Assembly: GCA_947462875.1 (NCBI GenBank)
Contig: CANHQJ010000002.1
Location: 1 to 64,000, forward strand
Length of the DNA stretch: 64,000 nucleotides
Direction of reading: 5' to 3'
DNA from: Verrucomicrobiia bacterium
Lineage (GTDB): Bacteria > Verrucomicrobiota > Verrucomicrobiia > Verrucomicrobiales > Akkermansiaceae
How positions within the stretch are numbered: position 1 is the stretch's first letter; every line of letters begins with the position of its first letter. A program made the translations under genes and the position numbers. Shown here one piece after another: positions 8,501-35,707 of the stretch. The notes beneath the pieces are model-generated. The model saw only the letters and a program-made list of their open reading frames with translations, ran no database searches and was not told the DNA's origin.

Positions 8501-11500
8501 CGATGCCGCCCGTGAAGTTGTTGGTGTTGTTGTTCAGCGCCAGGGTGCCGGCACCGTCTTTCTGGAGGCCGTTGTTTCCGCTGATCTGGCTGGAGATGGC
8601 GAGGGTGCGGCCGGACTGGGTCACATCGATCACCGGGATGCCCGACGTGCGCGACAAGGTGAGGGTGTTGGCACCGGAGAGGGTGAGATTGTTCGAGGAA
8701 GTGGTGGAATCGGTAAAGGTGATGTTGCCGATGGTGCGGGGCGTATCGAGAGTGACGGTTTGGTTTGCCGTGATGTTCGGCGTGAAGAAGGCGGTGCTGT
8801 CGGTGCCCGAGGCGATGATGCCGCCGGACCAGTTCGTGCCGGTACTCCAGTTGAAAGGCCCGGCCGTGGTCGGCAGCCAGGCACCATTTCCGCCAGCAGC
8901 CCATTTTGCGAACAGGGTGACGGAGGCATTGGCTGTGTACGTTGCCCCCACGGGATAGTCAGTGCCGGATCCATCGGCAGCGGTATTCCAACCGGCGAAG
9001 GTAGCGCCGCTCTTGATGAGATTGCCGGAGTTGGAGGCGAGGGTGAGCGGGGTATCGAGAAGCTTGGTTTGCGCGGCGGGTGCTGTTCCCAAGGTATTGC
9101 CGTTGCCGTTGTAACTGACGTTGTAGGCGATGACGAGGGTGTCACTCGCGGAGCCGGTGTGATTGGGCTCGGTAATGGTGACGGCCACGCTGTAGGTGCC
9201 GGCATTGATCGGAGCGGTGGATGAGCCATTGTAAGTGACAGCATAGGCGACAGCTGGCGTGGTATTGACGGTCACCGGTTTTGGGGCACCATCAAAGTAC
9301 TGCAGCAGGTTGCTGATGGCGATCGCTACGGGGATGGGGGATACGGTGAGATTGACGGCGCGGGTGGTGGTGCCGTTGTTGTTCGTGGTGTTGGTGAACG
9401 TCAGGGTGTCGGAATAAGTGCCGGGTGTGAAGGAGTTGGGAATGGCATTGAGCGTGACGGTCACCACGGTGCTGGCACCCGGCGCGAGGCTCCCGGAGAC
9501 GCCGCCGAGGTCGATCCAGTTTGCCGTTTTTTCGGCGGTCCAGTTGATGCTGGTGCTGCCGATGTTCGTTAGGGTATATGCCTTCGAGGGCGGCGTGAAG
9601 GATCCGCCATACGTGCCTGCGGGTTCGTAGTTTTCGGCAGTGACGGCGAGGGTGCCAAGCGGCACACCGGTGCCGGTGAGCGTGATGTCGAAGGGGTTTT
9701 CATCCAGATCATCGCTGGCAATCTGGAGCGAGGCCGTGCGCGCGCCGCTGCCGCCGGGGGTGAAAGTGACGGTGAACGTCGTGCTGGCACCCGGCGCCAG
9801 AGTGGTGGTGCTCAGAGAGCCGAGCGTGAAATCGGAGCTGTGCAGGCCTGACTTCGACAATGCCAGACCGGATAGGGTGGCCTGTCCGGTATTGCGAATT
9901 GTGAATGTGCGGGGCGTTCCGGAATTTCCGAGGTTGACCGAACCGCAATCCACTGAGGAACTGCCATCGGTGAGGTTGTTGCTGGCGGGCTGTTCGACCA
10001 CGATTTCCGGTTGCCTGTCGGGGATGATGCCGGTGATGGTGTATTGACCGACGGAGCCGTAAACGGTGTAGCCATTGCGGGGGCTGGCGAGCGGATTGCC
10101 CGCGCCCACGGGCTTGACGGCGAGAAAGTAGGTGCCGCCCGTCACCGTGCGGGAAATGGAGGCGTTGACCTGATCCGCGGGATTGTGGGAAGTGATGAGA
10201 TTTTGCGCGCTATCATACAGTTCTAACAGAATATCGAGATTGCCGCCCCAGGTGCTGGTGTCGGAACGGAAACCCGCGGCATTGAGCGTGATGGTACCCG
10301 GGCCGCTGACGAAGGTGAAAAAATCAGGGTCGTTGGTCCTTTCGATGAGGCCTGCTTGGTTGACAGTGGCGTTTGCCAGGGTGGTGGCGGTGCCGAATGT
10401 GTTGCCGTGGTCATCGGTGCGGTAGGGGAGTTTTCCGGAGATGATGGCCAAGTCGTCCTGTGTCTGGCTGCCATCGAGATACTCGGAAGCCTTGGACCAC
10501 TGGGTCACATTGCGGCCGTAGCCTGTGCCCATGATGGGTCCCCATGAAGGCGCGACCCCGCTCACACCATTGTGACCGCCGTAGTATTCGGTGGGTGATG
10601 CGCCGCCCAAGCCATCGTGCGACAATCCCAGATTATGCCCGAACTCATGGGTGCCGGCTTCGGTGGCATTTGCCGCATCGTAGTCCAAGGTAAAGGCCGG
10701 TTGGTAGCGCGAAAAATAATCGGTTCTCCCCCAAACGTTAACGTATGCCACACCACCGGAACCATTATGTGGCAGCGCGACATTATTCTTGTCAACGGAG
10801 GGAGTGAACAGATTCCAGCCGACCACATTTCTGCTGCCCGTGTAGCGGACGGTGTTGGTGTTTTCCGGATCATAAAAATAATCCGTGGTTACGTTGATGT
10901 CGAAGGGCGCATAATCCTCGACGGTGCGCTCCCAGATGCGGCGGATTTCGGCCTGCTCGGCATCGCTGAAAGTGGTCGGGTCCCCATCTTTGTCGTAGGG
11001 CTTGCAGTCCCAGCTGGTGACTGCGTAGCTGGTGTTCCATTGTTTGCCTGAAACGATCGCTCCATTGAAATCGAGATAGACGTGGCGGGTGGAACCTGGT
11101 CGGGAATTGTAGGCGGGAGGAGTGCTGATCGGAACAGGTGCGGCAGCAGGCACGATCGGGGCTGCGGAGGAATCCGCCTCGGGGGCGCTGGCAGCCTCGG
11201 GTGATTTTTCGGGCGCGGGGGCCTCTGTGGGTTCGTGGTGGTGATCGTGATTCTCGCAGCCTTCGCATCCTCCTTTGGGGCAAAGGATGTATATGCCGCC
11301 GCCGTCATCGACACGCATGTGCTTGGCCGCATCCAGCGTGTGGAAATCGATGGTGTGAAGCCACTGCATCGCGATGGCTCGCGTTTGGGGATTCAGAGCG
11401 AGCAGCTTTTTCTTCAGTTCCCCCGCTGGCAGTTCCTCCAGGGTGAATGGATTTTTTTTGCCAAAGAATGGTTTTGGATCTCGCTGCTGGGCGTGGAGTG

Positions 11501-11561
11501 ACAGCGGGGTCAGGAACGCGACAATGAGACTCAGAAAGGCTGGCAAGCGATGAAATGACAT
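2595..11561 (-). CDS. Giant secreted metalloprotease-like protein with InlB-type and autotransporter-type repeats
   Basis: 2988 aa. A signal peptide (residues 1-24, ending LHAQ) fixes the start at 11561; upstream in-frame codons lack one. Residues 94-110 are Cys/His-rich (CPKGGCEGC then HDHHHE). A metzincin-like zinc motif HEFGHNLGLSHD has H305, E306, H309 and H315. A PPC-like beta domain follows (about 405-505), then a choice-of-anchor-D-type domain, a BACON-like domain, an MBG-like segment, an InlB B-repeat, a long Gly/Asn/Thr region with autotransporter-associated repeats, a DNRLRE-type domain, and five to six further InlB B-repeats (FDANGG...GYTFxGWFT...LFAQW). The C-terminus has a calcium-binding-like NPDGDTLNNLQEFAFGTDP and a beta domain. 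Probably extracellular or surface-bound. Substrate unknown. Confidence 0.85.
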   Translation of the reverse strand: MSFHRLPAFLSLIVAFLTPLSLHAQQRDPKPFFGKKNPFTLEELPAGELKKKLLALNPQTRAIAMQWLHTIDFHTLDAAKHMRVDDGGGIYILCPKGGCEGCENHDHHHEPTEAPAPEKSPEAASAPEADSSAAPIVPAAAPVPISTPPAYNSRPGSTRHVYLDFNGAIVSGKQWNTSYAVTSWDCKPYDKDGDPTTFSDAEQAEIRRIWERTVEDYAPFDINVTTDYFYDPENTNTVRYTGSRNVVGWNLFTPSVDKNNVALPHNGSGGVAYVNVWGRTDYFSRYQPAFTLDYDAANATEAGTHEFGHNLGLSHDGLGGASPTEYYGGHNGVSGVAPSWGPIMGTGYGRNVTQWSKASEYLDGSQTQDDLAIISGKLPYRTDDHGNTFGTATTLANATVNQAGLIERTNDPDFFTFVSGPGTITLNAAGFRSDTSTWGGNLDILLELYDSAQNLITSHNPADQVNASISRTVTGGTYFLAVKPVGAGNPLASPRNGYTVYGSVGQYTITGIIPDRQPEIVVEQPASNNLTDGSSSVDCGSVNLGNSGTPRTFTIRNTGQATLSGLALSKSGLHSSDFTLGSLSTTTLAPGASTTFTVTFTPGGSGARTASLQIASDDLDENPFDITLTGTGVPLGTLAVTAENYEPAGTYGGSFTPPSKAYTLTNIGSTSINWTAEKTANWIDLGGVSGSLAPGASTVVTVTLNAIPNSFTPGTYSDTLTFTNTTNNNGTTTRAVNLTVSPIPVAIAISNLLQYFDGAPKPVTVNTTPAVAYAVTYNGSSTAPINAGTYSVAVTITEPNHTGSASDTLVIAYNVSYNGNGNTLGTAPAAQTKLLDTPLTLASNSGNLIKSGATFAGWNTAADGSGTDYPVGATYTANASVTLFAKWAAGGNGAWLPTTAGPFNWSTGTNWSGGIIASGTDSTAFFTPNITANQTVTLDTPRTIGNITFTDSTTSSNNLTLSGANTLTLSRTSGIPVIDVTQSGRTLAISSQISGNNGLQKDGAGTLALNNNTNNFTGGIVLNGGVLAVQSIAGSNQFGNNPITVNNSATISLGGATTVAPTCPGITLNNGSLLTIDTNVGSLTVNGNVTGADGGILLGLGTNGGDQTLNLNGTGNSFTGVIEYRAYTTNTTVRNGTITLSSLADSTTPGAGNIRFGLVGTTGNNVNSHILNIGSGTVAPIVLSNRRIELAGTSNAFPTINNNSSQALTIQSDLLFSGGGSKILNFGGTGAGLGTFAGVIGDSPTPTIGSTVLAAGYATGATTITLASVSGIEVGAAISGPNIPLGTTVTAIDAATNQVTLSAATTNSGSLGAAVTVTGVIGNLSITKNGTGTWNLSNPANTFSGAITLNSTTSAAGTLSYASAGGANPIVFNQTTSTATLRYTGPGQTMSGLISARALTSGTITLDASGTGPIHYSHPDSLKNVSTSNTIRKLVLTGNNAGSNIFAGALTNNSGTTNEATLTKNGTGTWVLTGSNSHTGATAINAGKLFINGDQSAATGLVNVAANATLGGTGILGGNATVASGGLLEFDISTPSASHDKLELAATRTLTFSGTSTLTITTPGGAAPGSYVLLTAPGGIFGNAPATLNLPVGWVASVATVGNDLVLTVTTAGGPIPGTLEVTPTDNLVSSGLVGSSSFTPSSLIYTLTNTGSSSLNWTAAKTASWLNLSASSGSLAGGATTSVTVSLNASASSLAEGQYTDTVTFANTTNGIGNTTRSASLTVVPPATYTVSYNGNGSTSGTAPNDQIKTENINLTLSGPGTLVRTGYTFSSWNTQADGSGTTYLAGATYSVNAAVILYAQWTANSYTVTFDPNGGNTPNPISKSVTFTAAYGTLATVSRPGYVFNGWFSAPTGGSPINAATTVTTPGNHTLYAQWTIGVAEIAITRGTAPIAIGAYDSLSGTTAASATSLTYTISNSGNFDLSLGSAVIPASTNCTVNITTQPASTVAPGATSNLVLSVTPTAAGAWSFSVSLPNNDADENPYLWTIYGVAQASTSVSLTPVADTWLNQGSADTNYGTAATFSIHDRNNNRRHGLVRFDLTSIPADATVQSATLSLVKNNTVTGTTNLVAAAASWTESGTGSATWNNMSANIGATSLGSVNVTASGTNNIPLNPAGIAALQNWVNTPVNNFGFGLTTTVAGAPTNFIEFHSKESGTSVNHPKLTVVYTQNPQVAEMEVTRGGDAMADGGSDSIPVSIPGSGTALTYAIANLGNAPLSLTTPISVSGAINCTVLVTTQPASSVAAGNTTHLVVTVTPGTPGAWSANLSIANNDPNENPYNWSIAGTASGGFLISYNTNNATTGNPPANQIKLSDVPLTLASNTGNLARTGYTYSGWNTADDGFGTSFAEGATYTPNAALSLFARWTVNTYTVTFDANGGDSPSQANKQVTFDAPYGPLATVSRTGHTFAGWFTAPTGGTLITTASTAAIAENHTLYAQWTPNTYTLTYDANGGGSPSPATQPITYGTPYGTLATVSRTGHTFNGWFTAASGGTQVTTATIVTTSGNQTLFAQWTPESYTVTFDANGGETPSPTSQQATYGSVYGTLPSTSRTGYQFTGWFTAATGGIQVTPFTTVTITAPLTLFARWTPATYTVTFNANGGSTPSPAGKAVTFDAAYGPLATTTRSGYTFNGWFTEPSGGLPISATTLVDDAENHTLFAQWTPDNYTITFDANGGTTAVPATREVTYDAAYGPLASTTRSGYIFSGWFTAASGGTLVNDTTTVTTAQNHTLFAQWTSLPVASFAITGIPAQAAIGSTISGISITAKDASDNTVTSFNGTVTYGGTAGITGTSSSFTNGVLTGVSITPSLAGNALTFTVHDGAGSTGSATFDVLSLYQNWTENNDLGGTTQSPEANPDGDTLNNLQEFAFGTDPKAGGQTLSYVAGGAVSSAGPPIVKNLAAGGADDFRAIFTRRKDHIAAGLTYIVEFSADLSHWTASQTAPTVLSGDATQNPGPIDAVSVPFPSSVPIAGGGSRKPTYVRVTVQTP

Positions 11562-11866
11562 GGTTTTTGTAGCGAGGAGATGGTGGAATACTACGTTTTT
11601 TGCTTGGCGGCGGATTACCATAGCACAAGTGGGATTGTAGGAAAGTGGGTGGCGGCGTTTTTTATCAATACGAAATCCAGATGAACTCCTGCAAATCAAA
11701 GAGCCTTCTCGCTCTGTGGTTTGGCGCAGATTTGCAGGGCGAATCGTAGGCGATTTGGTGCTTTTATGCAAACGCGAATCGTCAGCGCGAGGGAGCCCCA
11801 TGCGGCATGATCCGCTTCCTGCAAAAGGCTCCGCAACTTCTGATTGGCGCACGGGTTTCCATTCAT
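11562..11866. other. Divergent intergenic region with a nested inverted repeat
   Basis: About 305 bp separate the start of the giant protease (minus) from the esterase (plus), so promoters for both must lie here. The only clear structure is a perfect 10-bp inverted repeat, CCTGCAAATC (11688-11697) with GATTTGCAGG (11729-11738). It encloses a second stem, AGAGC (11700-11704) with GCTCT (11711-11715). No T-run follows on either side. I see no gene in it. Confidence 0.45.
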
Positions 11867-12997
11867 ATGCAGAACACTACGTTACGCCTTTTTTCGCTTC
11901 TCCTAGGTATATCAGGGGCCGTCGCCGCACCTGTCACGCACCGTGATCTCGCGTATCGCGCGGATGGACATGAGCGGCAAAAGCTCGACCTTTATCTGCC
12001 GGAAAAAACAGACCGCCCTGTGCCGCTGCTCATCTGGATTCACGGCGGCGGTTGGCAGGGTGGCAGCAAGGAAAACGCTCTTCCGCTCCGTCAAGGATGG
12101 CTGGAGCGCGGGTATGCCATCGCCAGCATCAACTACCGTCTCAGCAGCCACGCCGTTTTTCCCGCGCAGATCGAGGACTGCAAAGCGGCCATCCGCTGGT
12201 TGCGCGCGAACGCCCCGAAGTACCGGATCGACCCCGCATGCTTCGGCGTCTGGGGCAGTTCCGCCGGGGGGCACCTCGCCGCACTCGTCGGCACCAGTGG
12301 CGATGTGAAATCCCTGGACGTGGGCGAGCACCTCGATCAATCCAGCCGCGTGCAGGCCGTGTGTGACTACTACGGACCTACCGATTTCCATGCCTTTGTC
12401 TCGCGTCCGGGGTATGAAAATCATGCCAACCCCACTTCGCCCGAGTCTCTCCTGCTCGGCGGAACCGTTAAGGAAAAACCCGAGCTCGCCAAGGCGGCCA
12501 ATCCCATCACCTATGTCACGCCGGACGATCCGCCCTTTCTCATCGTGCATGGAGATAAGGATCCGGTCGTGCCGCTCCAGCAAAGCGAGCTCCTCTATCA
12601 CGCGCTGAAGTCCGCGCAGCGCAGTGTCCATTTCCACACCATCCACGGTGCCGGCCACGGGCAGGGCTTCGATGGCCCCGAGGTCCTGCCCATGGTGCAG
12701 AGGTTTTTCGATCAACATCTCGCTGCCGGGAAAAAAGACATCGCCCCGACCGCCACTACCACGGAGAGCCAGAGCGCCACAGCCGCGAATCGCAAGGGTG
12801 CCGCCCCCGGCTTCGAACAAATCCTCTCGCGCTTCGATGCCAATCGCGATGGAAAAATCGCGCGCGACGAGTTTCGTGGCCCGCCGGCTCTATTCACTCG
12901 CCTCGATGCGAATCAGGACGGCTTCGTCACCCGTGAGGAGCATGAAAAAATTTCCACCGTTCCCCGCGCTGCCGTGCCAAGCGCCGCGGGACCTTGA
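11867..12997 (+). CDS. Secreted alpha/beta-hydrolase esterase with C-terminal EF-hand pair
   Basis: 376 aa. The start at ATG 11867 gives a clean signal peptide (MQNTTLRLFSLLLGISGAVAA). The BD-FAE/esterase fold shows the oxyanion motif HGGGW (59-63), nucleophile S132 in GSSAG, an acid in HGDKDPVVP and a histidine in GAGHGQGF. After a linker, two EF-hand loops (FDANRDGKIARDEF and LDANQDGFVTREEH) form the C-terminus. Likely a periplasmic or secreted carboxylesterase acting on acylated sugars or xylan. The EF-hand tail is common in Planctomycetes/Verrucomicrobia secreted enzymes and may bind calcium. It is divergently placed from the giant protease. Confidence 0.85.
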   Translation: MQNTTLRLFSLLLGISGAVAAPVTHRDLAYRADGHERQKLDLYLPEKTDRPVPLLIWIHGGGWQGGSKENALPLRQGWLERGYAIASINYRLSSHAVFPAQIEDCKAAIRWLRANAPKYRIDPACFGVWGSSAGGHLAALVGTSGDVKSLDVGEHLDQSSRVQAVCDYYGPTDFHAFVSRPGYENHANPTSPESLLLGGTVKEKPELAKAANPITYVTPDDPPFLIVHGDKDPVVPLQQSELLYHALKSAQRSVHFHTIHGAGHGQGFDGPEVLPMVQRFFDQHLAAGKKDIAPTATTTESQSATAANRKGAAPGFEQILSRFDANRDGKIARDEFRGPPALFTRLDANQDGFVTREEHEKISTVPRAAVPSAAGP

Positions 12998-13041
12998 TAC
13001 GGCCGCGATGCCTTCCCTAGCGGGCGGCCGCGCTCATGGAT

Positions 13042-14367
13042 TCATCCACGCCATTTCATCAGGTCTTCCTGCACGTGGGTGGGGCGCAGGGGGTGGACTC
13101 TTCCGGGCAGGGGACTGGCATCGGTGACGATGGTCAGGGCGACGGCGGTGACGCCCAGCGCGTCCAACGAACGCAGGAAGGCGGCGCGTGATTCCGACCA
13201 GCCAGTGAAAATGCAGATGCAGGCACTGAGATCGTGCGCGTGCCGTGCCATCAGGCGGCTGAGCATCTCGAAGTTTTCCGCGGGCGATACGGCGACGGCG
13301 GCGAGCGCCTCTAACAATTTCATCGAGTCCGCTAGGCCGCGGCCCGCGGTGATGACATGCTCGCGGTCGCCCAGGAACATCAGATCGAGCATCACCTCCT
13401 CGGTATCGATCTCCGCGACGAAGGAGGCCGCCACCGATACGGCTTCCTCAAATTCCGTTTCCGCACCGGCGGCGAAGGTATCGAGCACGAGGGCATAGCG
13501 CGGGAAAACCACATCCTCCACTTCCTTCACGATCGGACGGCCCATCTTGGCCCAGGATTTCCAGTGGATCATGCGCGGCGGATCGCCGATGCGGTATTCG
13601 CGCAGCGAGGTGAACTCGCCGCTGCTGCCTTTTTGGCGGGAGGCCACATCATCGCCGGCGTGGTAGTGGGAGGAGCCGGGCAAATGTAGGGGCGGCAGGC
13701 GGTAGCGGCGCGGGAGCACGGGGAGATGCGCTTCCTCCGCGAGCACATGCCGCGCCCGTTGGAAAAAGCGGAACGGATCCGGCAGCAGCACGCGCATGTC
13801 ATCCAGCACGATGCAGCCACGTTTCCGCGGCGTGAGGGTGAGTGTGATCCGGCAACTGTCTCCGCGCTCGCACATCGGTGCGCTGCCGCTATCACCACCG
13901 GCAAACAAGGTGCCCTTTTCTAACAACCATTGCCACCGGTTGAAGGCGAAAAAGCGGTCGAAGCGGTTGCGTATCGCCTCGCCTGGCTCGCGCGCATGGG
14001 CAAAGGTATGCCAGGCGGGGCGGGGATCCGCGGGCGTTTCCTGCAGGCTCCAGTGGCGCAGGGAAGGCCCTCGGTTGTGAATGGTGACGGAGTAGCGCAG
14101 GCACTGCCCCACGGCCGCATGCGTGGGCAGATCGCGCTGGGCGTGGAGCTTGGCGCGGCGCGACCACACCCACACCAGCGCCACCGAGTTCAGGCCGAAG
14201 AGCAGCGCGAACATCTGATAGAGCGGCGTGATCGGACTGCCCATGAGCATGGTGGCGGCGATCACCGAGGCGATGCCCATGCCCCAGCCCGCGGGCAGGA
14301 TGCGGCGGGCGAACCAGAACTTTGCCGCGGTGGTCCACCGGTACAATTGATAGATGGCGCGCAGCAT
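13042..14367 (-). CDS. DUF58 domain membrane protein
   Basis: 441 aa. Two hydrophobic segments near residues 28-65 anchor a cytosolic remainder. The DUF58 signature is clear: GSSGEFTSLREYRIGDPPR followed by IHWKSWAKMGRPIVKE, then a VWA-like C-terminal region. DUF58 proteins usually sit beside MoxR ATPases and VWA proteins; no MoxR gene is visible here. The gene ends 44 bp after the convergent esterase. Function is not established for the family beyond a chaperone or assembly association. Confidence 0.82.
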   Translation of the reverse strand: MLRAIYQLYRWTTAAKFWFARRILPAGWGMGIASVIAATMLMGSPITPLYQMFALLFGLNSVALVWVWSRRAKLHAQRDLPTHAAVGQCLRYSVTIHNRGPSLRHWSLQETPADPRPAWHTFAHAREPGEAIRNRFDRFFAFNRWQWLLEKGTLFAGGDSGSAPMCERGDSCRITLTLTPRKRGCIVLDDMRVLLPDPFRFFQRARHVLAEEAHLPVLPRRYRLPPLHLPGSSHYHAGDDVASRQKGSSGEFTSLREYRIGDPPRMIHWKSWAKMGRPIVKEVEDVVFPRYALVLDTFAAGAETEFEEAVSVAASFVAEIDTEEVMLDLMFLGDREHVITAGRGLADSMKLLEALAAVAVSPAENFEMLSRLMARHAHDLSACICIFTGWSESRAAFLRSLDALGVTAVALTIVTDASPLPGRVHPLRPTHVQEDLMKWRG

Positions 14368-14408
14368 GGACTTCGATCAGGCAAAAAAGATAACGTGGCG
14401 CAGGCCGC

Positions 14409-16346
14409 TCAGGGTTTGATCAGTGCCTGTTCATTCACGAGTGTCTCGTGTTTTTGGTAGAGTTTTTGCAATTCATCCACAGCGGCATCGGGCAGGTATT
14501 TTTTCAGTTCGGTAAACGCGAGATTGTTCAGGTAATTCCGGCTGCGGTTGTTGCTGAGGGCCAGCTTCAGCTCAACTTGCGGGAGCAGGCGCGGACCTTT
14601 TTCCGTGACCACAAAGACATAGAGCGGGAACTGTGGGGTGGACTTGGCTTTATCGGAGATATACTTGGCGCTCACAGCGGCCCAGCGGCCGTTGACATTC
14701 ACATCCAGCACCTCATAGCGGCCGGAGCCGTACATCAGCTCGCCAGCGAGCGAACGCATCATGGCACTGATCGAGCGCTCGTCCTGGAACGCCGCGCAAA
14801 ACGGAATCACCTTGGTCAAACTTTTCTCCTGCACGGCTTGCAGCCAGCCGGCGAATACCTCGCGCACTTTCGCGGCATCGGGTTGCTCCTGCACCAGACC
14901 GCCGATGCGCACGGCATTGGCGACGAGGGAGTCGGCCAGCTTCGCCGCCCAGGCTTTTTTGTTGTCATCCCACCACTGCGTCAGAGCGTCGGGCGGCGTT
15001 TCTGGCGCGTCCGCGAGCAGGACCCATTCATTGTTTTTGCGGCCTAACCAGATTTTCTGGAGCTGTATCGCATCGGTATTGCGCGGTGCGTAGGATTGCA
15101 GCACCAGCAACGCGTGGTCTTCCTCTTCGAGAAATCCCACGCGGCCGAAGAGGCTGGAGCCGGTGGCGGAGCCTTGCAGTTTTTGCCACAGCCCGACCAT
15201 GCCGGGCATCTCCATCAGCAGGACGGAAACGGCAGGAGCCGCCCCCGCGCCCCAGAAGGTGGGGAAGTCATTGTTCTGCAAACTTTTTTCAACCGCATCT
15301 GCCACGGCTTTGGCATTCGTTAGATCCACGTCCGCCCAGCCGCGACGCGCCTGCTTGCGGATCGCATCATACATCGCGAGTTGGTCGGAGTCCTCGCAGT
15401 CCATGATCTCGCCCATCTCGTCTTCGGCGACATTGCGTTGCAGAAACACATCCGGCAGCACCACGCGGGCGCGGCCCTCTTCATCGTATTGGATGGAAAA
15501 AGAAAAGTAATCGGGCTCCTCGCTGAGGGACTCGGGATGCAGTGCGAGCATGTCGATGGATTTTTCATCGCCGAGATCGAGTGGCGCGCCGATCGCCTGC
15601 AGGGCCTGCTTGCCGGAAAGGAGTTTCCACGGCCATTTCTGCAAGTCACCGCTCTGGAAGGCGGTGGAAATCCGGCGCGCGATGGCATCCCATTGCGGCA
15701 CGGACTCGGAGGAAAATCCGCCGAGGCGGGCGAGAGCCGCCGCCTGGTTCCGCTCGCGGATGGCGGTGATGAATCCCTCTAACAGTTCGCGCGGCGCGAT
15801 GCTCTTGAGAGTGTCAGGCGCGATGCTTTGGTGCATTTTTTCCCGCAACTTCTTCGCGGCGCTGGTCTGCATTTCCTCGCGCAGGAAAATCTCGCGGGCC
15901 AGCATCCAGTGCTCGAGCGCCTGCCGTTGCGACAGCGTGGCGGGATCGTAGGTGACGATGCTGTTTTGAAAGGAAGAAAGCACTGGCGCGGCGAGCCACT
16001 CCTGATCGCGTTTCACAATGGCAAAGGACAGCACGTGGGACGAGGCCCCTTGATTTTCATCAAACTGACTGAGCACGACCGCGGCATTGTTGCCTTCGAT
16101 CTTTTCATCCACCACCTGAAACGCCATGGGCAGCATCTTCTTTCCGTTGGCCTTCCATGTCTCGGTGATCTGATCTTTTTTGCGATCGCCGGTATCCGGA
16201 TTCAAGGCGCAGCGTGTCATCAGCTTGTCCTTTTCCAAGCCATCGCGCAGGCCCTCGGCAAAGGCGATCGCCGCCTTACCGGGCGACTCCGCCGCACCGG
16301 AAAACGAACTGGCCAGACTGAGGAAAAGGAGGGCTAGGGCACGCAT
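14409..16346 (-). CDS. Hypothetical secreted/periplasmic protein
   Basis: 645 aa with a signal peptide (MRALALLFLSLASSFSGAAES). The rest is soluble, rich in Ala, Leu, Glu and Asp, with no motif I recognise. Its ATG overlaps the stop codon of the upstream M42 peptidase by one base (TGATG), so it is translationally coupled to it. The DUF58 gene follows after about 40 bp on the same strand. The three genes 17422-13042 therefore probably form an operon. Function unknown. Confidence 0.72.
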   Translation of the reverse strand: MRALALLFLSLASSFSGAAESPGKAAIAFAEGLRDGLEKDKLMTRCALNPDTGDRKKDQITETWKANGKKMLPMAFQVVDEKIEGNNAAVVLSQFDENQGASSHVLSFAIVKRDQEWLAAPVLSSFQNSIVTYDPATLSQRQALEHWMLAREIFLREEMQTSAAKKLREKMHQSIAPDTLKSIAPRELLEGFITAIRERNQAAALARLGGFSSESVPQWDAIARRISTAFQSGDLQKWPWKLLSGKQALQAIGAPLDLGDEKSIDMLALHPESLSEEPDYFSFSIQYDEEGRARVVLPDVFLQRNVAEDEMGEIMDCEDSDQLAMYDAIRKQARRGWADVDLTNAKAVADAVEKSLQNNDFPTFWGAGAAPAVSVLLMEMPGMVGLWQKLQGSATGSSLFGRVGFLEEEDHALLVLQSYAPRNTDAIQLQKIWLGRKNNEWVLLADAPETPPDALTQWWDDNKKAWAAKLADSLVANAVRIGGLVQEQPDAAKVREVFAGWLQAVQEKSLTKVIPFCAAFQDERSISAMMRSLAGELMYGSGRYEVLDVNVNGRWAAVSAKYISDKAKSTPQFPLYVFVVTEKGPRLLPQVELKLALSNNRSRNYLNNLAFTELKKYLPDAAVDELQKLYQKHETLVNEQALIKP

Positions 16347-28262: not shown

Positions 28263-28520
28263 ATGCACTACGCATACATTCTTCGTTCTTTGTCCGATCC
28301 TGACAAGCTCTACTACGGTAGCACTGCTGATTTAAAAAAACGATTTGCTACGCACAACGCGGCAGGAAATATTTCCACCAAGCCTTTTCGACCTTGGGAG
28401 ATTGCTTGGTATGCAGGATTTTCCAATCAACAAACAGCTCGTGATTTCGAGAAGTATCTCAAAACGGCATCTGGCAAGGCATTTGCCAAAAAGCGTTTAC
28501 TCAATGCCAATGAATCATGA
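28263..28520 (+). CDS. GIY-YIG domain nuclease-like protein
   Basis: 85 aa, the common size of single-domain YhbQ/UPF0213-like proteins. It opens YAYILRSLSDPDKLYYGSTADL (the YIL...YYGST form of the GIY-YIG core), then KKRFATHNAA and the Glu-bearing ARDFEKYLKT helix. The catalytic Arg and Glu equivalents appear present. The biological role of these stand-alone proteins is unknown; DNA repair is often suggested. Isolated, between the tRNA-associated repeat and an empty stretch. Confidence 0.85.
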   Translation: MHYAYILRSLSDPDKLYYGSTADLKKRFATHNAAGNISTKPFRPWEIAWYAGFSNQQTARDFEKYLKTASGKAFAKKRLLNANES

Positions 28521-28794: not shown

Positions 28795-31101
28795 TCACCG
28801 AAGCGGTGCGTCCTGTAACTGCAAATCAGGTTTGGTATTCCAGTGCGGTTTCCAGCCGGGTTTTTCGATGCGCGTGCGGAAAATGACCGTGTTGTCGAGA
28901 GCCAGGTCGTCGGTCCAGATGAATGACGCGCCGCTGAAATCGTGGTCAAAATAGGGTTTTTTCGGATCCACTTCGCGTGCGGTGTATTCCTTGGCTTTTG
29001 TCCACCGGCTGTCGTCAAAGTCCACGCTCCACCAGTTCGCAGGCAATGGTTCCTGAATCACCGTGGGACGGTTCGCGTCTCCCTTCAGTGGGCCGTGGAA
29101 AAACGACTTCGCCTTCCAGGTGGCATTCGTCACCGTGCCGTCACCCAGTTTCAGAATGAAGCCGCCGTCCCCGATGCTGTTGCCATATTCAAGCCCGGTT
29201 TTCGGATCCGCGTTGTCCTTTGCCAGAACGGCGATGGTCATCGGATACTCCGGCAACACATCGACACTGACCACATTGTGGGGGATGAAGGGAATGGGAT
29301 CCACGGCGGCAAGGCGGCCGTTGATGTAGAGCATGAACCAGTTGTCAGCATAGACGGTGAGTTTGATCGTGTCTTCCATGCCGGGTTTCACGACAGCGGA
29401 TCCCGCACCTTTGACCGCTGCGCCACGCGGTTCCGCTGGCCGATTGTCGCGGGCCGGGGGGCGGTTTTCCGGAGCCATGCCGCCGGGTGGCGTTGGATCG
29501 TTGCCGCGTTGATGGATCACTTGCAAGGATGCGCTGGCCAGCACCTTGTCCTGCATGGCGGAGAGCAAAACATCGCGATCCACTTCGTCCGCCGGTTTGC
29601 CGATCGCCAGCGGAGCGGAAAGCGCATAGATTGTGATCACATAGGTTTTGGCTCCCGGTCCTTTGGAATTCGGCGGCTCATAGCCGATCTGGCCCTTGAA
29701 CCCGGTGCCCAGCTTACCGACGTCGCGCGCGTTTTTCGGAATCCCATTGAGTGTGGCGGGGATATCCCACATCGTCCAATAGTGCTTGATCTCGCCATCC
29801 GGTGTCTCGTGATCCATGAGCACGGCGTAACTTTTGGTGGCGGCGGGCGCGCCCTTCCATTGCAAGGGCGGGCTGACTCCCGCTCCGTCGCCGGTGCATT
29901 CGATCGGAAGCCGTCCGTCGTTTTTCACGTCGGGACTGCTGAGCACAAAATGACCGTCGGGCTTTTTCATGGCATCCACTCCGAAGCGTGGAGCCGCTTG
30001 TGCACGCGGGGCGGGTTCCGGGCGTTTCGGCTCGGTATCATCGCGTCTTGCCGGGCGTTCGGGGCCACCGGGCTCCGGACGCTCCGCGCGCCCTGCACCA
30101 CCGCCGCGCTGCCGCAGTTGATAGACTTCCTTTGTGGTGCCCTCGCTGCCATTCTGGAATTCGAACGGGAAGGTTCCGTCCGCAAGGATCGCGTAAAGGA
30201 CGGCGCGCTTTTCACCGTTGCACTCGTAGGAAAGTTTGTAGCGGTTCTCGCCCATGGTCTGGAAGCCGGTGATCTTCGCGCCGCGCAGAGCGGGTAATGC
30301 CTCGCGCACGCCGTTCGCGCCGGGCTGTGGATCCACCTGGTCCTCGCGTTCCGTCACGACTCCGTGAAAGCCGCCATTGACGTACGGATAGTCCAGCGAG
30401 GCGTGATAGTGATAGCCCAAGGAGGCTGTCGAATGGCCGTGGAAGGCATCCAGTCCGGTGGGCTTCGTTCCATCCGGTTCGGTCAAACCATAAATCGGAT
30501 AGCCATCGAGGGCGAACGCGATGGGCAAGCCTTTTCCGACGACCGTTTGCAAGTGCAGCGGTGCCGCGTGATAGTGGTAATCATCGGCTCTGCCGCAATG
30601 CCCGCCCCATTGGTCGAGTTCGCCGATCATGGCGGAAATTTCTCTACGATTGTTCTGGGGATTGAAAATCGGAATGCCATTCGCGGCGATGGCAATGGCA
30701 CCACGGAGAAAGCGCCCCTTGATGGAGACTTCCTCTTTGGCCGGCACCGGTGCGAGGGGAACCCGCCACGCGTTTTCTCCCTTGTAGTTCTGTGGCAAGG
30801 GCACCTGCTGTTGCCACGCGGTGATGCCCACCATCATGTTGTGTGAGGGCAAACCATTGCTCTCGACGTAAAGAAATTGTTCATCCCAGCGCAGCCCGAC
30901 TTTGGGAGAAAATTTCGCAAATGCGGCGGCTTGTGCGGGTGCCGGCTTTGCCACAGCAGATGAACCCGTTGCCGGCTTGTCGCTGGTGGCAGCGGGCTGT
31001 GCGATTGTCGTGGCGTGCGTGTGCCCCCCCGCCGACCACTCGTGGCCGCTGAGTGCGTTAGGGATGGCTGCAAAGAGTAGGGCCGTGATGAGGGATTTCA
31101 T
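28795..31101 (-). CDS. Secreted YHYH-domain and PEBP (YbhB/Raf-kinase-inhibitor-like) fusion protein
   Basis: 768 aa. Signal peptide MKSLITALLFAAIPNALSG. The N-terminal half is a YHYH domain (ADDYHYHAAPLHLQ, later LGYHYHASLDYPYVNG). A Pro/Arg/Glu-rich linker leads to a PEBP-type domain with SPPLQWKGAPAATKSYAVLM, DHETPDGEIKHYWTMWDIP and GYEPPNSKGPGAKTYVITIY. The C-terminal about 170 residues form another beta-rich region. It starts 8 bp after the sulfatase stop and is the last gene of the sigma-factor operon. PEBP proteins bind ligands or phospholipid head groups; the activity here is unknown, perhaps binding or modifying a glycan fragment. Confidence 0.85.
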   Translation of the reverse strand: MKSLITALLFAAIPNALSGHEWSAGGHTHATTIAQPAATSDKPATGSSAVAKPAPAQAAAFAKFSPKVGLRWDEQFLYVESNGLPSHNMMVGITAWQQQVPLPQNYKGENAWRVPLAPVPAKEEVSIKGRFLRGAIAIAANGIPIFNPQNNRREISAMIGELDQWGGHCGRADDYHYHAAPLHLQTVVGKGLPIAFALDGYPIYGLTEPDGTKPTGLDAFHGHSTASLGYHYHASLDYPYVNGGFHGVVTEREDQVDPQPGANGVREALPALRGAKITGFQTMGENRYKLSYECNGEKRAVLYAILADGTFPFEFQNGSEGTTKEVYQLRQRGGGAGRAERPEPGGPERPARRDDTEPKRPEPAPRAQAAPRFGVDAMKKPDGHFVLSSPDVKNDGRLPIECTGDGAGVSPPLQWKGAPAATKSYAVLMDHETPDGEIKHYWTMWDIPATLNGIPKNARDVGKLGTGFKGQIGYEPPNSKGPGAKTYVITIYALSAPLAIGKPADEVDRDVLLSAMQDKVLASASLQVIHQRGNDPTPPGGMAPENRPPARDNRPAEPRGAAVKGAGSAVVKPGMEDTIKLTVYADNWFMLYINGRLAAVDPIPFIPHNVVSVDVLPEYPMTIAVLAKDNADPKTGLEYGNSIGDGGFILKLGDGTVTNATWKAKSFFHGPLKGDANRPTVIQEPLPANWWSVDFDDSRWTKAKEYTAREVDPKKPYFDHDFSGASFIWTDDLALDNTVIFRTRIEKPGWKPHWNTKPDLQLQDAPLR

Positions 31102-31109
31102 GATGCGGG

Positions 31110-32462
31110 TTATTTGTTAGGATTACGTTTTTGCCTGCCCTCCTGTTTTTCCACAGCGGCAGGATTGTAGGCGGGATTGGGCAGGTGAGGGCGAGGAGCT
31201 TTCGTGGATTCCTGCCAGGCGCGGAGTTTTGCCAACAGTTCGGCAGATTTTCGGGGATCGACGTGGGAGAGATCATTCCGTTCGCCCGGGTCTTTTGTCA
31301 GGTCGTAGAGCTCCACGGTTTTCGATTCGAAGATCTCGATCAATTTCCAGTTGCCCGAGCGAATCGCGCTGCAGGGACCTCCGCCGCCGATGTAGCTGGG
31401 GAAATGCCAGAACGTGTCGCGCGGCAATGCCGCCTCTTGTCCGCGGAGGAGCGGAACGAGACTGCGGCCGTCGAGATTTTTTCCGGCAGCCGCCCCGCAC
31501 AGTTCCAGCACCGTGGGAACCCAGTCCATGCTGAGAATGGGTTCGTTCGATCGCGCAGGCTGGATACCAGGGCCGTGGATCAGCGCCGGGACGCGCAGAC
31601 CGCCCTGATAGAGTGTGCCTTTTCCTCCGCGCAACGGTGCCACCGTGCGACGCGAGCCGCCATTGTCCGAGGTGAAAATGACATGCGTGTTCTGTGCGAG
31701 GCCGAGTCGCCGGAGGCAGTCCATGACGCGACCGATGTTCGCATCCATCGCTGCCACCGTGGCCGCCAGGGCCGGATCCGTCCTACCGTTGAGGCCTTGG
31801 TACTTTGCCAGCAGCTCGGGCTTGGGATCGAACGGTTCGTGCACGTCGTGAAAGGCGAGATAGAGGAAAAACGGCTTCTGGCTTGCTTGCTCGATCCAGC
31901 GCAGCGAGGCATCAGTGAGAGCATCGGGCGAGTACTCGCCCGCGGCATTCCGATAGGCGTCTTTTTCATAACCGAGTTGTTTGGGCTCCATGAAAACATC
32001 GAACCCCTGTCCGGTAGGCGTGGTGGGGCCGCTGCGGCCGCGCCCCAGATTCCACATGCCGAACATGGCCGTGGCATAACCTTCCGCCCGCAGCATTTCC
32101 GCGAGCGTGACGGATTCGGCGGGTAGCGCCTCGTTGCTCGGTGCCGCGAGGATTTTGTGATGCGGAGAGCCGGGCGCGTGACGGTCATCCACCACGGTAT
32201 AGACACCATGACGTGGCGGGTATTGTCCGGTGAGAAGACAGGCGCGTGTGGGCGCGCAGTTCGGCGCGCTGGCGCAGGCCTCGGTGAAATGCATTCCCTC
32301 ACGGGCCAGCCGATCGAGATGCGGCGTTTTTATCTCCGGGTTGCCCGTGAAGCCGGCGTCATTCCAGCCCATGTCATCGGCGAGAATCAACACGACATTG
32401 GGACGCGGTGCCGCGTGCACTGAATCCAACAAGGCGAACAGGACAAGGCAGAGACGTTTCAT
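31110..32462 (-). CDS. Sulfatase (formylglycine type, arylsulfatase family)
   Basis: 450 aa with a signal peptide (MKRLCLVLFALLDSVHA). The metal-site start PNVVLILADDMGWNDAG and the maturation motif C69-A-P-T-R73 (followed by ACLLTGQYPPRHG) define a type I sulfatase whose cysteine needs conversion to formylglycine by an FGE or anSME; neither is encoded in the window. It removes sulfate from sulfated glycans in the periplasm or outside. The start codon overlaps the stop of the upstream sulfatase by 4 bp. Confidence 0.93.
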   Translation of the reverse strand: MKRLCLVLFALLDSVHAAPRPNVVLILADDMGWNDAGFTGNPEIKTPHLDRLAREGMHFTEACASAPNCAPTRACLLTGQYPPRHGVYTVVDDRHAPGSPHHKILAAPSNEALPAESVTLAEMLRAEGYATAMFGMWNLGRGRSGPTTPTGQGFDVFMEPKQLGYEKDAYRNAAGEYSPDALTDASLRWIEQASQKPFFLYLAFHDVHEPFDPKPELLAKYQGLNGRTDPALAATVAAMDANIGRVMDCLRRLGLAQNTHVIFTSDNGGSRRTVAPLRGGKGTLYQGGLRVPALIHGPGIQPARSNEPILSMDWVPTVLELCGAAAGKNLDGRSLVPLLRGQEAALPRDTFWHFPSYIGGGGPCSAIRSGNWKLIEIFESKTVELYDLTKDPGERNDLSHVDPRKSAELLAKLRAWQESTKAPRPHLPNPAYNPAAVEKQEGRQKRNPNK

Positions 32463-33898
32463 GGCTTGGTCTTTTTCGGTTTTCCGCCTTCTTTTGCTCC
32501 GCCTTTTCCGCCTTTGCGCGGAGCGGGAGCCGCGGCGGGATCGTAGTCTTTGTTGGGTGTCGGCAGCGATGCTCCCGTTTCCTTCAGTATGGCGCGGAGT
32601 TTGCCATCGAGACGATCCGCGAGGTCGGTCCTTTGCGGCGCGAGATCGTTGCGTTCACCCGGATCCTGGCGCAGATCGAAAAGCTTGCGCGTGCCCTCTT
32701 CGTAGGAAAAAATCAACTTGTAATCACCCTCGCGAATCGCCGATTGGGGCGTGTCTCCCTGGTAGTGGGGAAAGTGGAACAACAAGGCGGTTTCATGGCG
32801 CACCACGGGTTGATCTTTCCCCGAGAGCAGTGGTGCCAAATCTCCTCCATCGATCTTTGCAGGCATGTTTTCCTTCACCTGCGCCCAGCGACAAATCGTC
32901 GGATACCAATCATACGCCACCACGGGCTGATGACACCATGATCCGGGTGCGATGCCCGGCCCGCGCACCATGAACGGCACACGGATGCCACCTTCGCCCA
33001 ACGCTCCTTTTCCCCCTTGCAGGCGATCGGAGCCCGCCTTGCCGCCTTTGCCGCCGCCTCCCCCCCCGCCGTTGTCTGCCATGTAGATGACGTAGGTGTT
33101 TTTTTCCAAACCAAGGGCTTGCATCGCTTCCAGCAAACGTCCGACGCCGGTATCGAGATCGTAGGTGATCGCCGCTCGCGCCGGATCGCGATGCAACACA
33201 CCAGCCGGTTTGGACTCGAAGCGCGCAAGGCTCGACTTCAGGGCGTTTTCGGGCAGGTGCAGCGCGTGATACGACATCTGCAGATAAAACGGTTTCCGCG
33301 ATTTGATCTGAGCGGCCATGAATGCCTTCGCGCGATCCGTCATGCCGAAGATGTCCACGGGATTCGGATCGGTAAAAGGGTCGGCATCGCGATTACCCGT
33401 ATCGCCATCGCTCACATCGAAGCCATGGCGTTCCGGACCTCCGCCCGCCAGGTGCCATTTGCCGAAATGCGCCGTGGCATAGCCCGCGCGCTGCAGAAGC
33501 TCCGGGAACGTCACTTCCTCATCGCGGATCGCCTTGCGCGAGTTGCCTTCGATGAGCTTGTGCCCCTCTTCCGGCGGAGCCGCCTTGGTCCAGCCCAGTC
33601 GCGCGGGAAACATCCCCGTCTGCAGGCTGATGCGGGTGGGGGAGCAAACCGGAGCCGGCGCATATCCATGGGAAAAACGCATGGCCTGCGCGGCGAATGA
33701 TGCCAGATGGGGCGTTTCGTAATAGTCGCTCTGCGATGACGGCATGTCGGGATGCATGCGCGTGGACAGTCCGTTCCAATCCTGATCGTCAGCCAGCAAC
33801 AAAACGATGTTGGGACGGGAGGGTGGCGCGGTTTCGGCCGTCACCGATGCCATGCAGGTCATGATCGCGGTGATGGAAAAACAGGGAAAAAGTTTCAT
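32459..33898 (-). CDS. Sulfatase (formylglycine type)
   Basis: 479 aa. Signal peptide MKLFPCFSITAIMTCMASVTA. The active-site motif is C85-S-P-T-R (CSPTRISLQTGMFPARLG) after PNIVLLLADDQDWNG. A Gly-rich insert (GGGGGGGKGGK) precedes the conserved GALGEGGIRVPFMVRGPG. A Lys/Gly-rich tail (GGKGGAKEGGKPKKTKP) is unusual. Its start overlaps the anti-sigma gene by 4 bp and its end overlaps the next sulfatase by 4 bp. The two sulfatases are clearly different enzymes, so they probably act on different linkages or substrates. Confidence 0.93.
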   Translation of the reverse strand: MKLFPCFSITAIMTCMASVTAETAPPSRPNIVLLLADDQDWNGLSTRMHPDMPSSQSDYYETPHLASFAAQAMRFSHGYAPAPVCSPTRISLQTGMFPARLGWTKAAPPEEGHKLIEGNSRKAIRDEEVTFPELLQRAGYATAHFGKWHLAGGGPERHGFDVSDGDTGNRDADPFTDPNPVDIFGMTDRAKAFMAAQIKSRKPFYLQMSYHALHLPENALKSSLARFESKPAGVLHRDPARAAITYDLDTGVGRLLEAMQALGLEKNTYVIYMADNGGGGGGGKGGKAGSDRLQGGKGALGEGGIRVPFMVRGPGIAPGSWCHQPVVAYDWYPTICRWAQVKENMPAKIDGGDLAPLLSGKDQPVVRHETALLFHFPHYQGDTPQSAIREGDYKLIFSYEEGTRKLFDLRQDPGERNDLAPQRTDLADRLDGKLRAILKETGASLPTPNKDYDPAAAPAPRKGGKGGAKEGGKPKKTKP

Positions 33899-34872
33899 GG
33901 TTCGGGCAGTACGGTTCGGTCGGGTTCGTGATGATGCTGGTGTCGGAAAAAATCAGCGGGCAATGCTTCGGTGGAGACGAGCGTGATGGCGATGCTGTGA
34001 GGCCCGCCGTTGCCGCGGGGAAGCTGGCGCAGGATCATTTTTTCGAGAACTCCGGTTTGCGGATGGAACCACAGTTCGATTTCGCGGGCTCCTCCCTGAT
34101 CCGCCGAACGCCGCGTCGCGATGAGTTTGTGTGATGCCGATGAGGTCCGATCCAGCCACTCGATCTGATAGAGCCGTTTCAGTTCTTCCAGCTGGGTGCG
34201 CAGGTCGAGGAACGCGATTTCTCCGTTTTTGGCGAAAATCGCCCGTCCGAACCGTGCCGGATCCGGGCTCACGCGGACCTCTTCCCCGCCGCGCATGGAC
34301 CAGCTCTCTTTGCCGTCCGCACCGATCAAACGCTTCTGGCCGTTGGGCAGGTCTTGGCTGAGCACAAACTCATGCGGACCACGCATCCACAGTGCCGCTC
34401 CGTCCAGAAAATTTCCCACGGGAAAGCGCCCACGATCCGGGCGCGACGAATCACGCGGCTCCTGCGGAGCTTCGATCACTTCGATGCGGTATGTCCGGTC
34501 ACGCGCCTGGCTCATCACATCGATCACGCGGTCCAACGCGGCGTTCGCCTTCATGGGCAACAGAAACAGCAGCAGAAAGGATATGATCACCAATGCCGCC
34601 GCTGGGAGCAGAAGATGGCGCAAACGCCGTGCCCCGCGAGCAGGAGCGTTTTCCAGATTGCGGAAAAATTCTCCCTTGGAAGGGGCGAAAGAACCTGCCC
34701 TCGCCTCCCGCACCAGCATGCCGTGAAGCATCGCGTTATCGAGAAAACGCCTGCGGCTTTCGGGCGATGCGGCGACGAGTCGCGCGAGTTCCTCACGCTC
34801 CGCGTCATCGGCGATGTCGAGCAGGACTTTGGTGGCGAGATCATCCAACGGGCTGTGTTGCGGGGAGTTCAT
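33895..34872 (-). CDS. Membrane-anchored anti-sigma-like protein
   Basis: 325 aa. The start at ATG 34872 (MNSPQHSPLDDLATKVLLD) overlaps the sigma gene by 4 bp. The N-terminal cytosolic part (1-87) is followed by one transmembrane helix (about 88-106) and an extracytoplasmic domain of beta-rich appearance. That domain resembles the RseB/LolA-like fold seen in sensors and carrier proteins (EIELWFHPQTGVLEKMIL). Position directly after the ECF sigma gene, overlapping starts, and this topology point to an anti-sigma factor that holds the sigma factor at the membrane until a signal arrives. No conserved anti-sigma zinc motif (HxxxCxxC) is visible. Confidence 0.75.
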   Translation of the reverse strand: MNSPQHSPLDDLATKVLLDIADDAEREELARLVAASPESRRRFLDNAMLHGMLVREARAGSFAPSKGEFFRNLENAPARGARRLRHLLLPAAALVIISFLLLFLLPMKANAALDRVIDVMSQARDRTYRIEVIEAPQEPRDSSRPDRGRFPVGNFLDGAALWMRGPHEFVLSQDLPNGQKRLIGADGKESWSMRGGEEVRVSPDPARFGRAIFAKNGEIAFLDLRTQLEELKRLYQIEWLDRTSSASHKLIATRRSADQGGAREIELWFHPQTGVLEKMILRQLPRGNGGPHSIAITLVSTEALPADFFRHQHHHEPDRTVLPEP

Positions 34873-35399
34873 GGCGCGGTTCGGGGATGGGATTGTGAGA
34901 TGCAATCCAGCAGCGTGAGGTGGACATGTTTGAGCATCTTGTACACGGCCATCTGCGTGCGGTTCCACTGCTGCGCGATGGATTTCACGGGCCGTTCTTC
35001 CTGATAGCGCAAATGGAGCACGGCGCGTTGCCGGTCGTTCAGTTGGCCGAGGCATTTACGCAGGGCATCGATGCGCTCATCATACCCTTGACACTGCTCC
35101 GCGGCCTCCTCCGCGAGAAGCTCCAGAGTCGCCTCATCCAGCGGCAAGGGCGCACGACGTTGTTTGCGGCGCCATTCCATCACGAGCAACCGTGCGAATC
35201 CGATGCCCCATGCCACGAACGGACGGCTTTCGTCATAGTCGGCGAATTTCAGCCACATCCGCTCCGCGAGATCCTGCATCAGATCATCTGTCGCGTGTGT
35301 GTCATGCACGAGCGAAAACACGAATCCGTGAAGGGCGGGCAGTGCTGTCACGAATTGCCTGGTGAAGGCGAGATGGGGGTCTGAACTCGGTTCTTTCAT
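34869..35399 (-). CDS. ECF RNA polymerase sigma factor (Rhodopirellula/Verrucomicrobium type)
   Basis: 176 aa. Region 2 is seen in HDTHATDDLMQDLAERMW and FARLLVMEWRRKQRR; region 4 in LNDRQRAVLHLRYQEERPVKSIAQQWNRTQMAVYKMLKHV, a helix-turn-helix for the -35 element. The sequence pattern fits the sigma subfamily widely expanded in Planctomycetes and Verrucomicrobia. It heads a five-gene unit (sigma, anti-sigma, two sulfatases, YHYH/PEBP) with overlaps or tiny gaps throughout. Autoregulation is likely but the promoter is not certain. Confidence 0.9.
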   Translation of the reverse strand: MKEPSSDPHLAFTRQFVTALPALHGFVFSLVHDTHATDDLMQDLAERMWLKFADYDESRPFVAWGIGFARLLVMEWRRKQRRAPLPLDEATLELLAEEAAEQCQGYDERIDALRKCLGQLNDRQRAVLHLRYQEERPVKSIAQQWNRTQMAVYKMLKHVHLTLLDCISQSHPRTAP

Positions 35400-35707
35400 G
35401 GGATTTCATCAGGTATTGTCACCTGACTGCGGAAGTTAAACCTCACGCGTCAAAAAAAGTTCCGAATCGATTGCGATGGGTACGTCTTTCACGGCGAGGT
35501 CAAGGAAAGTGCCTTTCTTATCAATCGGTGAATCGAGGCCGTCGCACGTATGCGCGTTCCCTCAGGACACAGCATCCGTGCGGGGTGTGACGAGACATTT
35601 CCGTCAGTAGCTGTGGCTCGTACGGCGAGCAGGATCAAGCGGAGTATTCCGCTGTGCCGACTCCCTTACTTTTCGATTCAAATCGCCATCAGGCAAGAAT
35701 GATCGAC
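35400..35707. other. Leader region of the sigma/sulfatase operon with a palindrome
   Basis: 308 bp with no gene. A perfect inverted repeat TCAGGT-N6-ACCTGA (35409-35426) lies 10-27 bp upstream of the sigma start codon and could be an operator or a leader hairpin. On the minus strand TTGACG (+ strand near 35449) is a possible -35 box. Another palindrome, AGCGGA-GTAT-TCCGCT, lies near 35638-35653. Confidence 0.4.

Follow-up and report, generated by a model that had tools for sequence, protein, structure and literature searches.

What is produced by a gene cluster in which a sigma factor is followed by two sulfatases, and under which control, is the question raised by a locus of a Verrucomicrobiia bacterium of the Akkermansiaceae (assembly GCA_947462875.1, contig CANHQJ010000002.1), located in an analysed stretch of 64,000 nucleotides (nt), hereafter the window. 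Little is known of the substrates and the regulation of the sulfatases that abound in Verrucomicrobiota and Planctomycetota. All five genes of the cluster lie on the minus strand, in the 5' to 3' order extracytoplasmic function (ECF) sigma factor, anti-sigma factor, sulfatase A (SulA), sulfatase B (SulB), and YHYH/PEBP protein, with spacings of -4, -4, -4, and +8 nt. The cluster is probably an ECF operon that regulates itself and encodes a secreted sulfatase assembly of several parts, one of them, SulB, being non-canonical. The unexpected point, missed by an earlier model-made annotation of the same letters (the sequence-only reading), is that SulB, as judged by alignment, is devoid of two near-invariant active-site residues. 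The features are the following (aa, amino acids).

35414..35442, minus strand: putative ECF promoter GGTTTAA-N15-GACAATA, whose end lies 14 nt upstream of the start codon of the sigma gene, from the comparison of upstream regions
34869..35399, minus strand: ECF sigma factor, TIGR02989 (Rhodopirellula/Verrucomicrobium) family, 176 aa, from TIGR02989 and Pfam scores
33895..34872, minus strand: predicted anti-sigma factor, 325 aa, with a helical N-terminal part, a predicted helix at 81-104, and a LolA/RseB-fold outer domain, from the predicted structure
32459..33898, minus strand: SulA, 479 aa, PF00884, with canonical CSPTR and GKWH, from Pfam and motifs
31110..32462, minus strand: SulB, 450 aa, PF00884, with CAPTR present and GMWN replacing GKWH, from Pfam and alignment
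32244..32258, minus strand: CAPTR of SulB (Cys69-Arg73), formylglycine consensus, retained
32049..32057, minus strand: codons 136-138 of SulB (M-W-N), aligned to K-W-H (Lys113/His115 positions of AtsA) of 9fo1 and other solved sulfatases
28795..31101, minus strand: YHYH/PEBP protein, 768 aa, with YHYH at ~50-330 and PEBP at ~398-527, both from Pfam, and a conserved C-terminal domain at ~565-768

The two distinct sulfatases and the YHYH+PEBP protein, with their 4-bp overlaps and 8-bp spacing, had already been described in the sequence-only reading, with which coordinates and Pfam matches agree, and its proposal that the five genes are made together is supported by a layout that fits one transcriptional unit. 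The start of the anti-sigma gene was set at the ATG at 34872, and not at that of the longer open reading frame (ORF), because this ATG overlaps the sigma stop codon by 4 nt, as in relatives; the promoter-like element stands so close to the sigma start codon (14 nt) that the leader would be very short. The sigma factor scores 136.2 bits against a TIGR02989 cut-off of 124.55 and contains Pfam regions 2 and 4 (PF04542, PF04545), both sulfatases pass PF00884, and the YHYH/PEBP protein exceeds the gathering cut-offs of PF14240 (45.9 vs 25 bits) and PF01161 (63.9 vs 24 bits), while its C-terminal domain matched no Pfam family.

The nearest solved relative of both sulfatases is the kappa-carrageenan sulfatase 9fo1 of subfamily S1_16 (E 2.1e-76 for SulA and 1.3e-97 for SulB), a match that leaves their substrate unfixed. 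SulA, in which the motifs CxPxR, GKxH, and DN are present as CSPTR, GKWH, and DNG, is most likely an ordinary formylglycine sulfatase. Of the S1 sulfatase signatures, SulB has the formylglycine motif and is without the active-site Lys and His of the second: it retains CAPTR, both N-terminal aspartates, the DN pair (DNG), and the RGGKG lysine, and M136 and N138 align with the K and H of 9fo1 and other solved sulfatases. According to PMC5066984, 94% of 4058 sulfatase sequences have Lys113 and 81% have His at the His position, the base that releases sulfate being His115.

The substitution is a property of the whole subfamily as far as it was read. SulB was used as a query against 386 genomes and the 30 best places were made into loci, to which the reading of the motif was confined; among the matches listed, 23 at E <= 1e-122 (56-100% identity) were followed by a drop to 47% and below, and these 23 together with L034 and L079 form a set of 25 orthologues, from which a 93-aa remnant in genome G069 was excluded. 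GMWN is found in 25/25, the near-invariant Lys and the catalytic His both being gone, and CxPxR is kept in 24, the SulB of G075 being without that part. The next seven relatives, among those made into loci, have GKWH in every case; among 137 distinct sulfatase-like ORFs, 14 have GMWN, all of SulB type and with some genes counted twice, and 43 gave no motif match and were left unclassed. SulB can be read as a conserved non-canonical relative of sulfatases, either an enzyme whose chemistry is altered or a subunit with a structural or binding role. A phosphonate monoester hydrolase (S1_0) was also considered and rejected: these enzymes have a metal-ligand His where others have Asn, according to PMC12421950, and by this mark SulB, with Asn (DNG), is of another type. 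The home genome (G000) contains six PF03781 rows, one of which is a full-length match of the formylglycine-generating enzyme (FGE) type, so formylglycine maturation is plausible. Elsewhere in the same genome (G000:C2:114105-115045), a sulfatase match is spread over two frames with an internal TAG, due to a pseudogene or a sequencing error.

The effector proteins may act as one assembly, as suggested mainly by gene fusions. One open frame covers SulA and SulB in G337, G221, G207, and G294 (loci L215, L217, L219, and L221; in G294 the contig stops within the frame), YHYH and SulB in G279, G235, and G027 (L216, L222, and L226; in G027 together with the C-terminal domain), and YHYH and SulA in the one-contig genome G097 (L227); EF-hand matches lie between the parts in all three fused chains scanned (L215, L226, and L227). 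In addition, each of the 25 SulB loci has SulA, YHYH, or the C-terminal domain, either fused to SulB or on the same strand within ~3.1 kb of it. When the YHYH protein was used as a query over genome contigs, 57 loci were obtained, all from metagenome-assembled genomes (MAGs); a sulfatase directly adjoins YHYH in 40 of them (28 downstream, 13 upstream), raw counts that are not corrected for chance, the home genome holding 62 PF00884 match rows, and a sigma gene lies upstream of YHYH in 8/57. With 40 of 57 YHYH loci adjoining a sulfatase and YHYH fused to one in four genomes, the addition of a YHYH/PEBP protein is not the unusual trait that it had been taken for in the sequence-only reading.

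As regards the YHYH/PEBP protein itself, structural matches of its model at E <0.001 concern the PEBP part only, and a phage origin of the YHYH protein gained no support, there being no match among phages. The home genome encodes a separate second YHYH protein of 397 aa (L139, 2697-3890, minus strand, G000:C1) with C-terminal EF-hand-like repeats recognised by eye. At L033 (4123-9942), a 1939-aa protein beside the YHYH gene combines a YHYH-like part (48% by BLAST) with Lcl_C, Ig-like, and GKWH sulfatase domains.

The complete order sigma, anti-sigma, SulA, SulB, YHYH recurs in 5/57 other loci (L031, L032, L034, L039, and L079), beyond chance. An identical five-gene order is present in G088 (L144), but its sigma factor is only 28% identical and belongs to a different clade; in G390, one contig stops after sigma, anti-sigma, and SulA (L169), a second contig end carries the last part of SulA with SulB and YHYH (L228), and joining the two would give the identical order. 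Variants are found in G052 (L175; sigma, anti-sigma, SulA, C-domain-YHYH, SulB) and in G214 and G282, where sigma, anti-sigma, and YHYH are arranged together. The anti-sigma factor has a match at E <= 1e-15 in 20/386 genomes of the taxonomic order, own genome counted.

In a FastTree phylogeny of 22 sigma sequences, the sigma factor of the window falls in a clade of 12 (support 0.67), and G088, G214, G282, G210, and G231 form a second clade (support 0.97), whose members likewise neighbour sulfatases or YHYH; thus, one effector set appears tied to two ECF clades. CGTCAYA is located upstream of the sigma start in 5/5 members of the second clade; in G088 it is inside the longest ORF, yet before a likely later start. 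The second-clade sigma/anti-sigma pairs of G231 (L180) and G210 (L182) precede a different sulfatase, followed at L182 by PSCyt1/PSD1 and DUF1501 genes. At L172 (3681-7265, G165), the sigma/anti-sigma clade of the window is followed by a 1194-aa protein with FGE-like, PEBP, and arylsulfotransferase domains, in which PEBP recurs with sulfate-ester genes, and G151 and G187 have ORFs similar to it in length and place.

The sequence GGTTTRR-N15-GACAATA is common to the upstream regions of the sigma genes. Among 14 closely related sigma orthologues (identity 53-100%), nine have a best upstream site with 0 mismatches, three one with 2, one with 3, and one with 4, in a comparison that is partly circular, the element having been derived from the very regions then scored; in seven distant sigma factors (28-33%), the best site has 5-6 mismatches, a level that most shuffles reach. 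Over 30 hand-chosen genomes, of which 12 have a close anti-sigma factor and 18 have none, 14 exact sites were counted; they are spread over 11 genomes of the first group, and the 18 of the second have no exact site. Seven are placed at the sigma gene (G000, G023, G393, G171, G390, G013, and G165). In the home genome, the only site within one mismatch is that of the operon, as is also the case in G023 and G393, which supports a closed, putatively self-contained unit in these three genomes. The eight bases GACAATAC alone are uninformative (65 home-genome sites vs 22 for the backward pattern). Scans of the region for sigma-70-type promoters and terminators gave 3 and 8 sites, both at shuffle level; the former result agrees with a self-contained plan in the home genome. 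The self-contained unit of the sequence-only reading therefore fits the home genome and does not fit some relatives, in which the element also precedes other genes: an exact site lies between the anti-sigma gene and an arylsulfotransferase-type gene in G397 and directly before SulB in G052, and the sigma clade can therefore apparently gain targets. From these comparisons, the element may be what the sigma factor reads in a putative autoregulated ECF operon.

The anti-sigma protein has no Pfam match. Its structural model (mean pLDDT, the predicted local distance difference test, 77; 9 sequences) starts with a helical N-terminal part, continues with a long helix (81-104), assigned by eye as transmembrane, and then shows a LolA/RseB fold, with Foldseek matches to LolA (4mxt, E 1.7e-9), RseB (3m4w, E 8.1e-7), and LprG (3mh8, E 4.6e-5), which bears out the RseB/LolA-like outer domain already suspected from the letters. 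The modelled protein would be an anti-sigma factor with a built-in RseB-type sensor, and its position, helical N-terminus, and long helix fit an anti-sigma factor that would bind and inhibit the co-encoded sigma factor. A second sigma operon of the home genome (L134, G000:C7:35000-53000, 7206-14799, minus strand) comprises a TIGR02989 sigma factor, a FecR-type anti-sigma factor, a protein of 1455 aa matching CBM96 and a GH141 insertion, and then a sulfatase.

In the mechanism proposed here, the membrane anti-sigma factor would hold the sigma factor while its LolA/RseB-fold domain watches the periplasm; some ligand would change this domain, with the consequent release of the sigma factor, which would read the single GGTTTRR-N15-GACAATA promoter ahead of its own gene. 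The joint output of sigma, anti-sigma, SulA, SulB, and YHYH/PEBP protein would rise, and SulA, SulB, and the YHYH protein would work as one secreted assembly. The sequences themselves show the arrangement of the genes, the conserved promoter-like element with its one site in the home genome, the match in fold, the SulB substitutions, and the fusions; from these we infer sigma-promoter recognition, ligand-triggered release, the physical complex, the role of SulB, and secretion, the signal peptides having been judged by eye.

Several observations, besides the circularity and the raw neighbour counts given above, weigh against this mechanism. The YHYH and C-terminal domains were modelled at a mean pLDDT of 59 only. 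The layout is patchy: the YHYH gene of L039 is spread over two frames, an LTXXQ-family protein stands where YHYH is expected in G171, the sigma clade of the window sits with arylsulfotransferase-type genes in G165 and G397, and the YHYH protein is present in only 4/9 other genomes of the same genus, the unit being therefore patchy also within it. Seven of the 14 exact sites are away from the sigma gene, in the sigma-bearing genomes G165, G151, G187 (two), G397, and G052 (two), and the 43 one-mismatch sites of the 30 genomes do not exceed the control, the backward pattern giving 44 sites when up to one mismatch is allowed.

Damage to the sulfatases in the two loci without regulators, G069 (L142) and G075 (L141), points in the same direction. 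In both, sigma and anti-sigma are absent and a one-mismatch promoter-like site precedes SulA. In G069, a 40-residue piece between this site and SulA matches region 4 of the L039 sigma factor (E 1.4e-10) and, on this similarity, is clearly a sigma remnant, whereas in G075 only a 10-residue, non-significant resemblance to the anti-sigma factor is found (E 0.46); a close sigma factor was not found elsewhere in G069 (best 33%) or G075 (none). SulB of G069 is the 93-aa remnant, in which both ends are kept, and the frames of SulA and YHYH are open there; in G075, SulA has a frame change near residue 330 and SulB is without its first 95 residues, but none of the YHYH, PEBP, and C-terminal domains is missing. 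The two loci are read as decaying, with an assembly fault possible in these draft MAGs.

Other explanations share part of this evidence. SulB might be an active sulfatase for another substrate or ester type, with its altered residues compensated elsewhere, the two enzymes acting sequentially on one sulfated compound; a dead protein need not keep CAPTR, the N-terminal aspartates, the DN pair, and the RGGKG lysine, and both sulfatases are closest to 9fo1. However, the joint loss of Lys and His in 25/25 orthologues affects the near-invariant Lys113 (94% of 4058) and His115 positions (81% His; the sulfate-freeing base) of PMC5066984, and Asn in place of His excludes the phosphonate monoester hydrolase type by the mark given in PMC12421950, so that this explanation is possible but doubtful. 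In a further reading, SulA, SulB, and the YHYH/PEBP protein could form an obligate complex in which SulB, a formylglycine protein, takes up but cannot release sulfate because the base His is lost, and so serves as sulfated-ligand receptor or sulfate trap; the LolA-domain anti-sigma factor would then read the state of SulB or of the YHYH protein bound to it; this is improbable, and, if true, it would make a pseudo-sulfatase the sensor within its own sigma operon.

As for regulation, it is rather unlikely that the sigma factor runs a wider regulon of which the operon is merely the best-conserved target: the half of the exact sites found away from the sigma gene (G165, G151, G187, G397, and G052) would be explained, those of G397 and G052 directly preceding another gene of interest, but three genomes (home genome, G023, and G393) have no site within one mismatch besides that of the operon, in a count that weaker sites would escape. 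The signal could also be envelope or lipoprotein stress, to which relatives of RseB and LolA respond, with the sulfatases remodelling the sulfated surface of the cell itself instead of serving to feed on outside glycans. LolA, RseB, and LprG, which the outer domain of the anti-sigma factor matches, bind lipids or lipoproteins, and the Pfam scan gave no match to glycoside hydrolase, lyase, or transporter families in the five genes. There is, on the other hand, no evidence here of a sulfated envelope polymer, and the 62 PF00884 match rows of the genome suit scavenging, which leaves stress sensing conceivable though not likely. The autoregulated operon with a multi-part sulfatase assembly is the reading preferred here.

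Among known systems, RpoE-RseA-RseB of the E. coli sigma E response likewise combines an ECF sigma factor, a membrane anti-sigma factor, and an outer-side RseB-fold sensor, and PMC8103513 describes rpoE feedback and RseB within the operon; in contrast, E. coli RseB is a separate protein, while here the fold is part of the anti-sigma factor and effector genes sit within the operon. The sigma factor passes the cut-off of the TIGR02989 family of Rhodopirellula and Verrucomicrobium; a Rhodopirellula ECF gene was proposed to regulate a PSD-domain protein (PMC2754498), and ECF sigma factors and sulfatase clusters were described in Planctomycetes (PMC2754498, PMC4807772). With respect to S1 formylglycine sulfatases, of which 9fo1 is the best match of both proteins, SulA has the motifs checked and SulB differs in having M and N at the Lys113/His115 positions. 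Bacteroidetes polysaccharide utilization loci can be under ECF sigma/anti-sigma control and similarly place such a pair beside carbohydrate-active genes; unlike them, the five genes gave no match to SusC/SusD or to glycan hydrolases and the anti-sigma factor none to FecR, so that the SusC/SusD and glycan-degrading enzymes that define such a locus are absent from the five genes, the flanks not having been scanned for these. In the open-licence literature, no report was found of a promoter of the TIGR02989 group or of a YHYH/sulfatase operon, nor papers on YHYH with sulfatase, on sulfatase, pseudoenzyme, and formylglycine together, or on Verrucomicrobia ECF sigma factors joined to sulfatases as an operon, all of these being weak negatives. 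Outside the operon and convergent to its end, a short ORF (window 28263-28520, plus strand) is GIY-YIG endonuclease-like by eye.

With one sigma factor, one predicted promoter, and one operon, the unit offers a small testable case. It points to a sulfatase subfamily without two key catalytic residues in every orthologue read, which is retained beside, or fused to, an intact sulfatase or a YHYH protein; a partner of this kind was not found described in the open-licence literature searched. The fusions give a first lead on the function of the YHYH domain.

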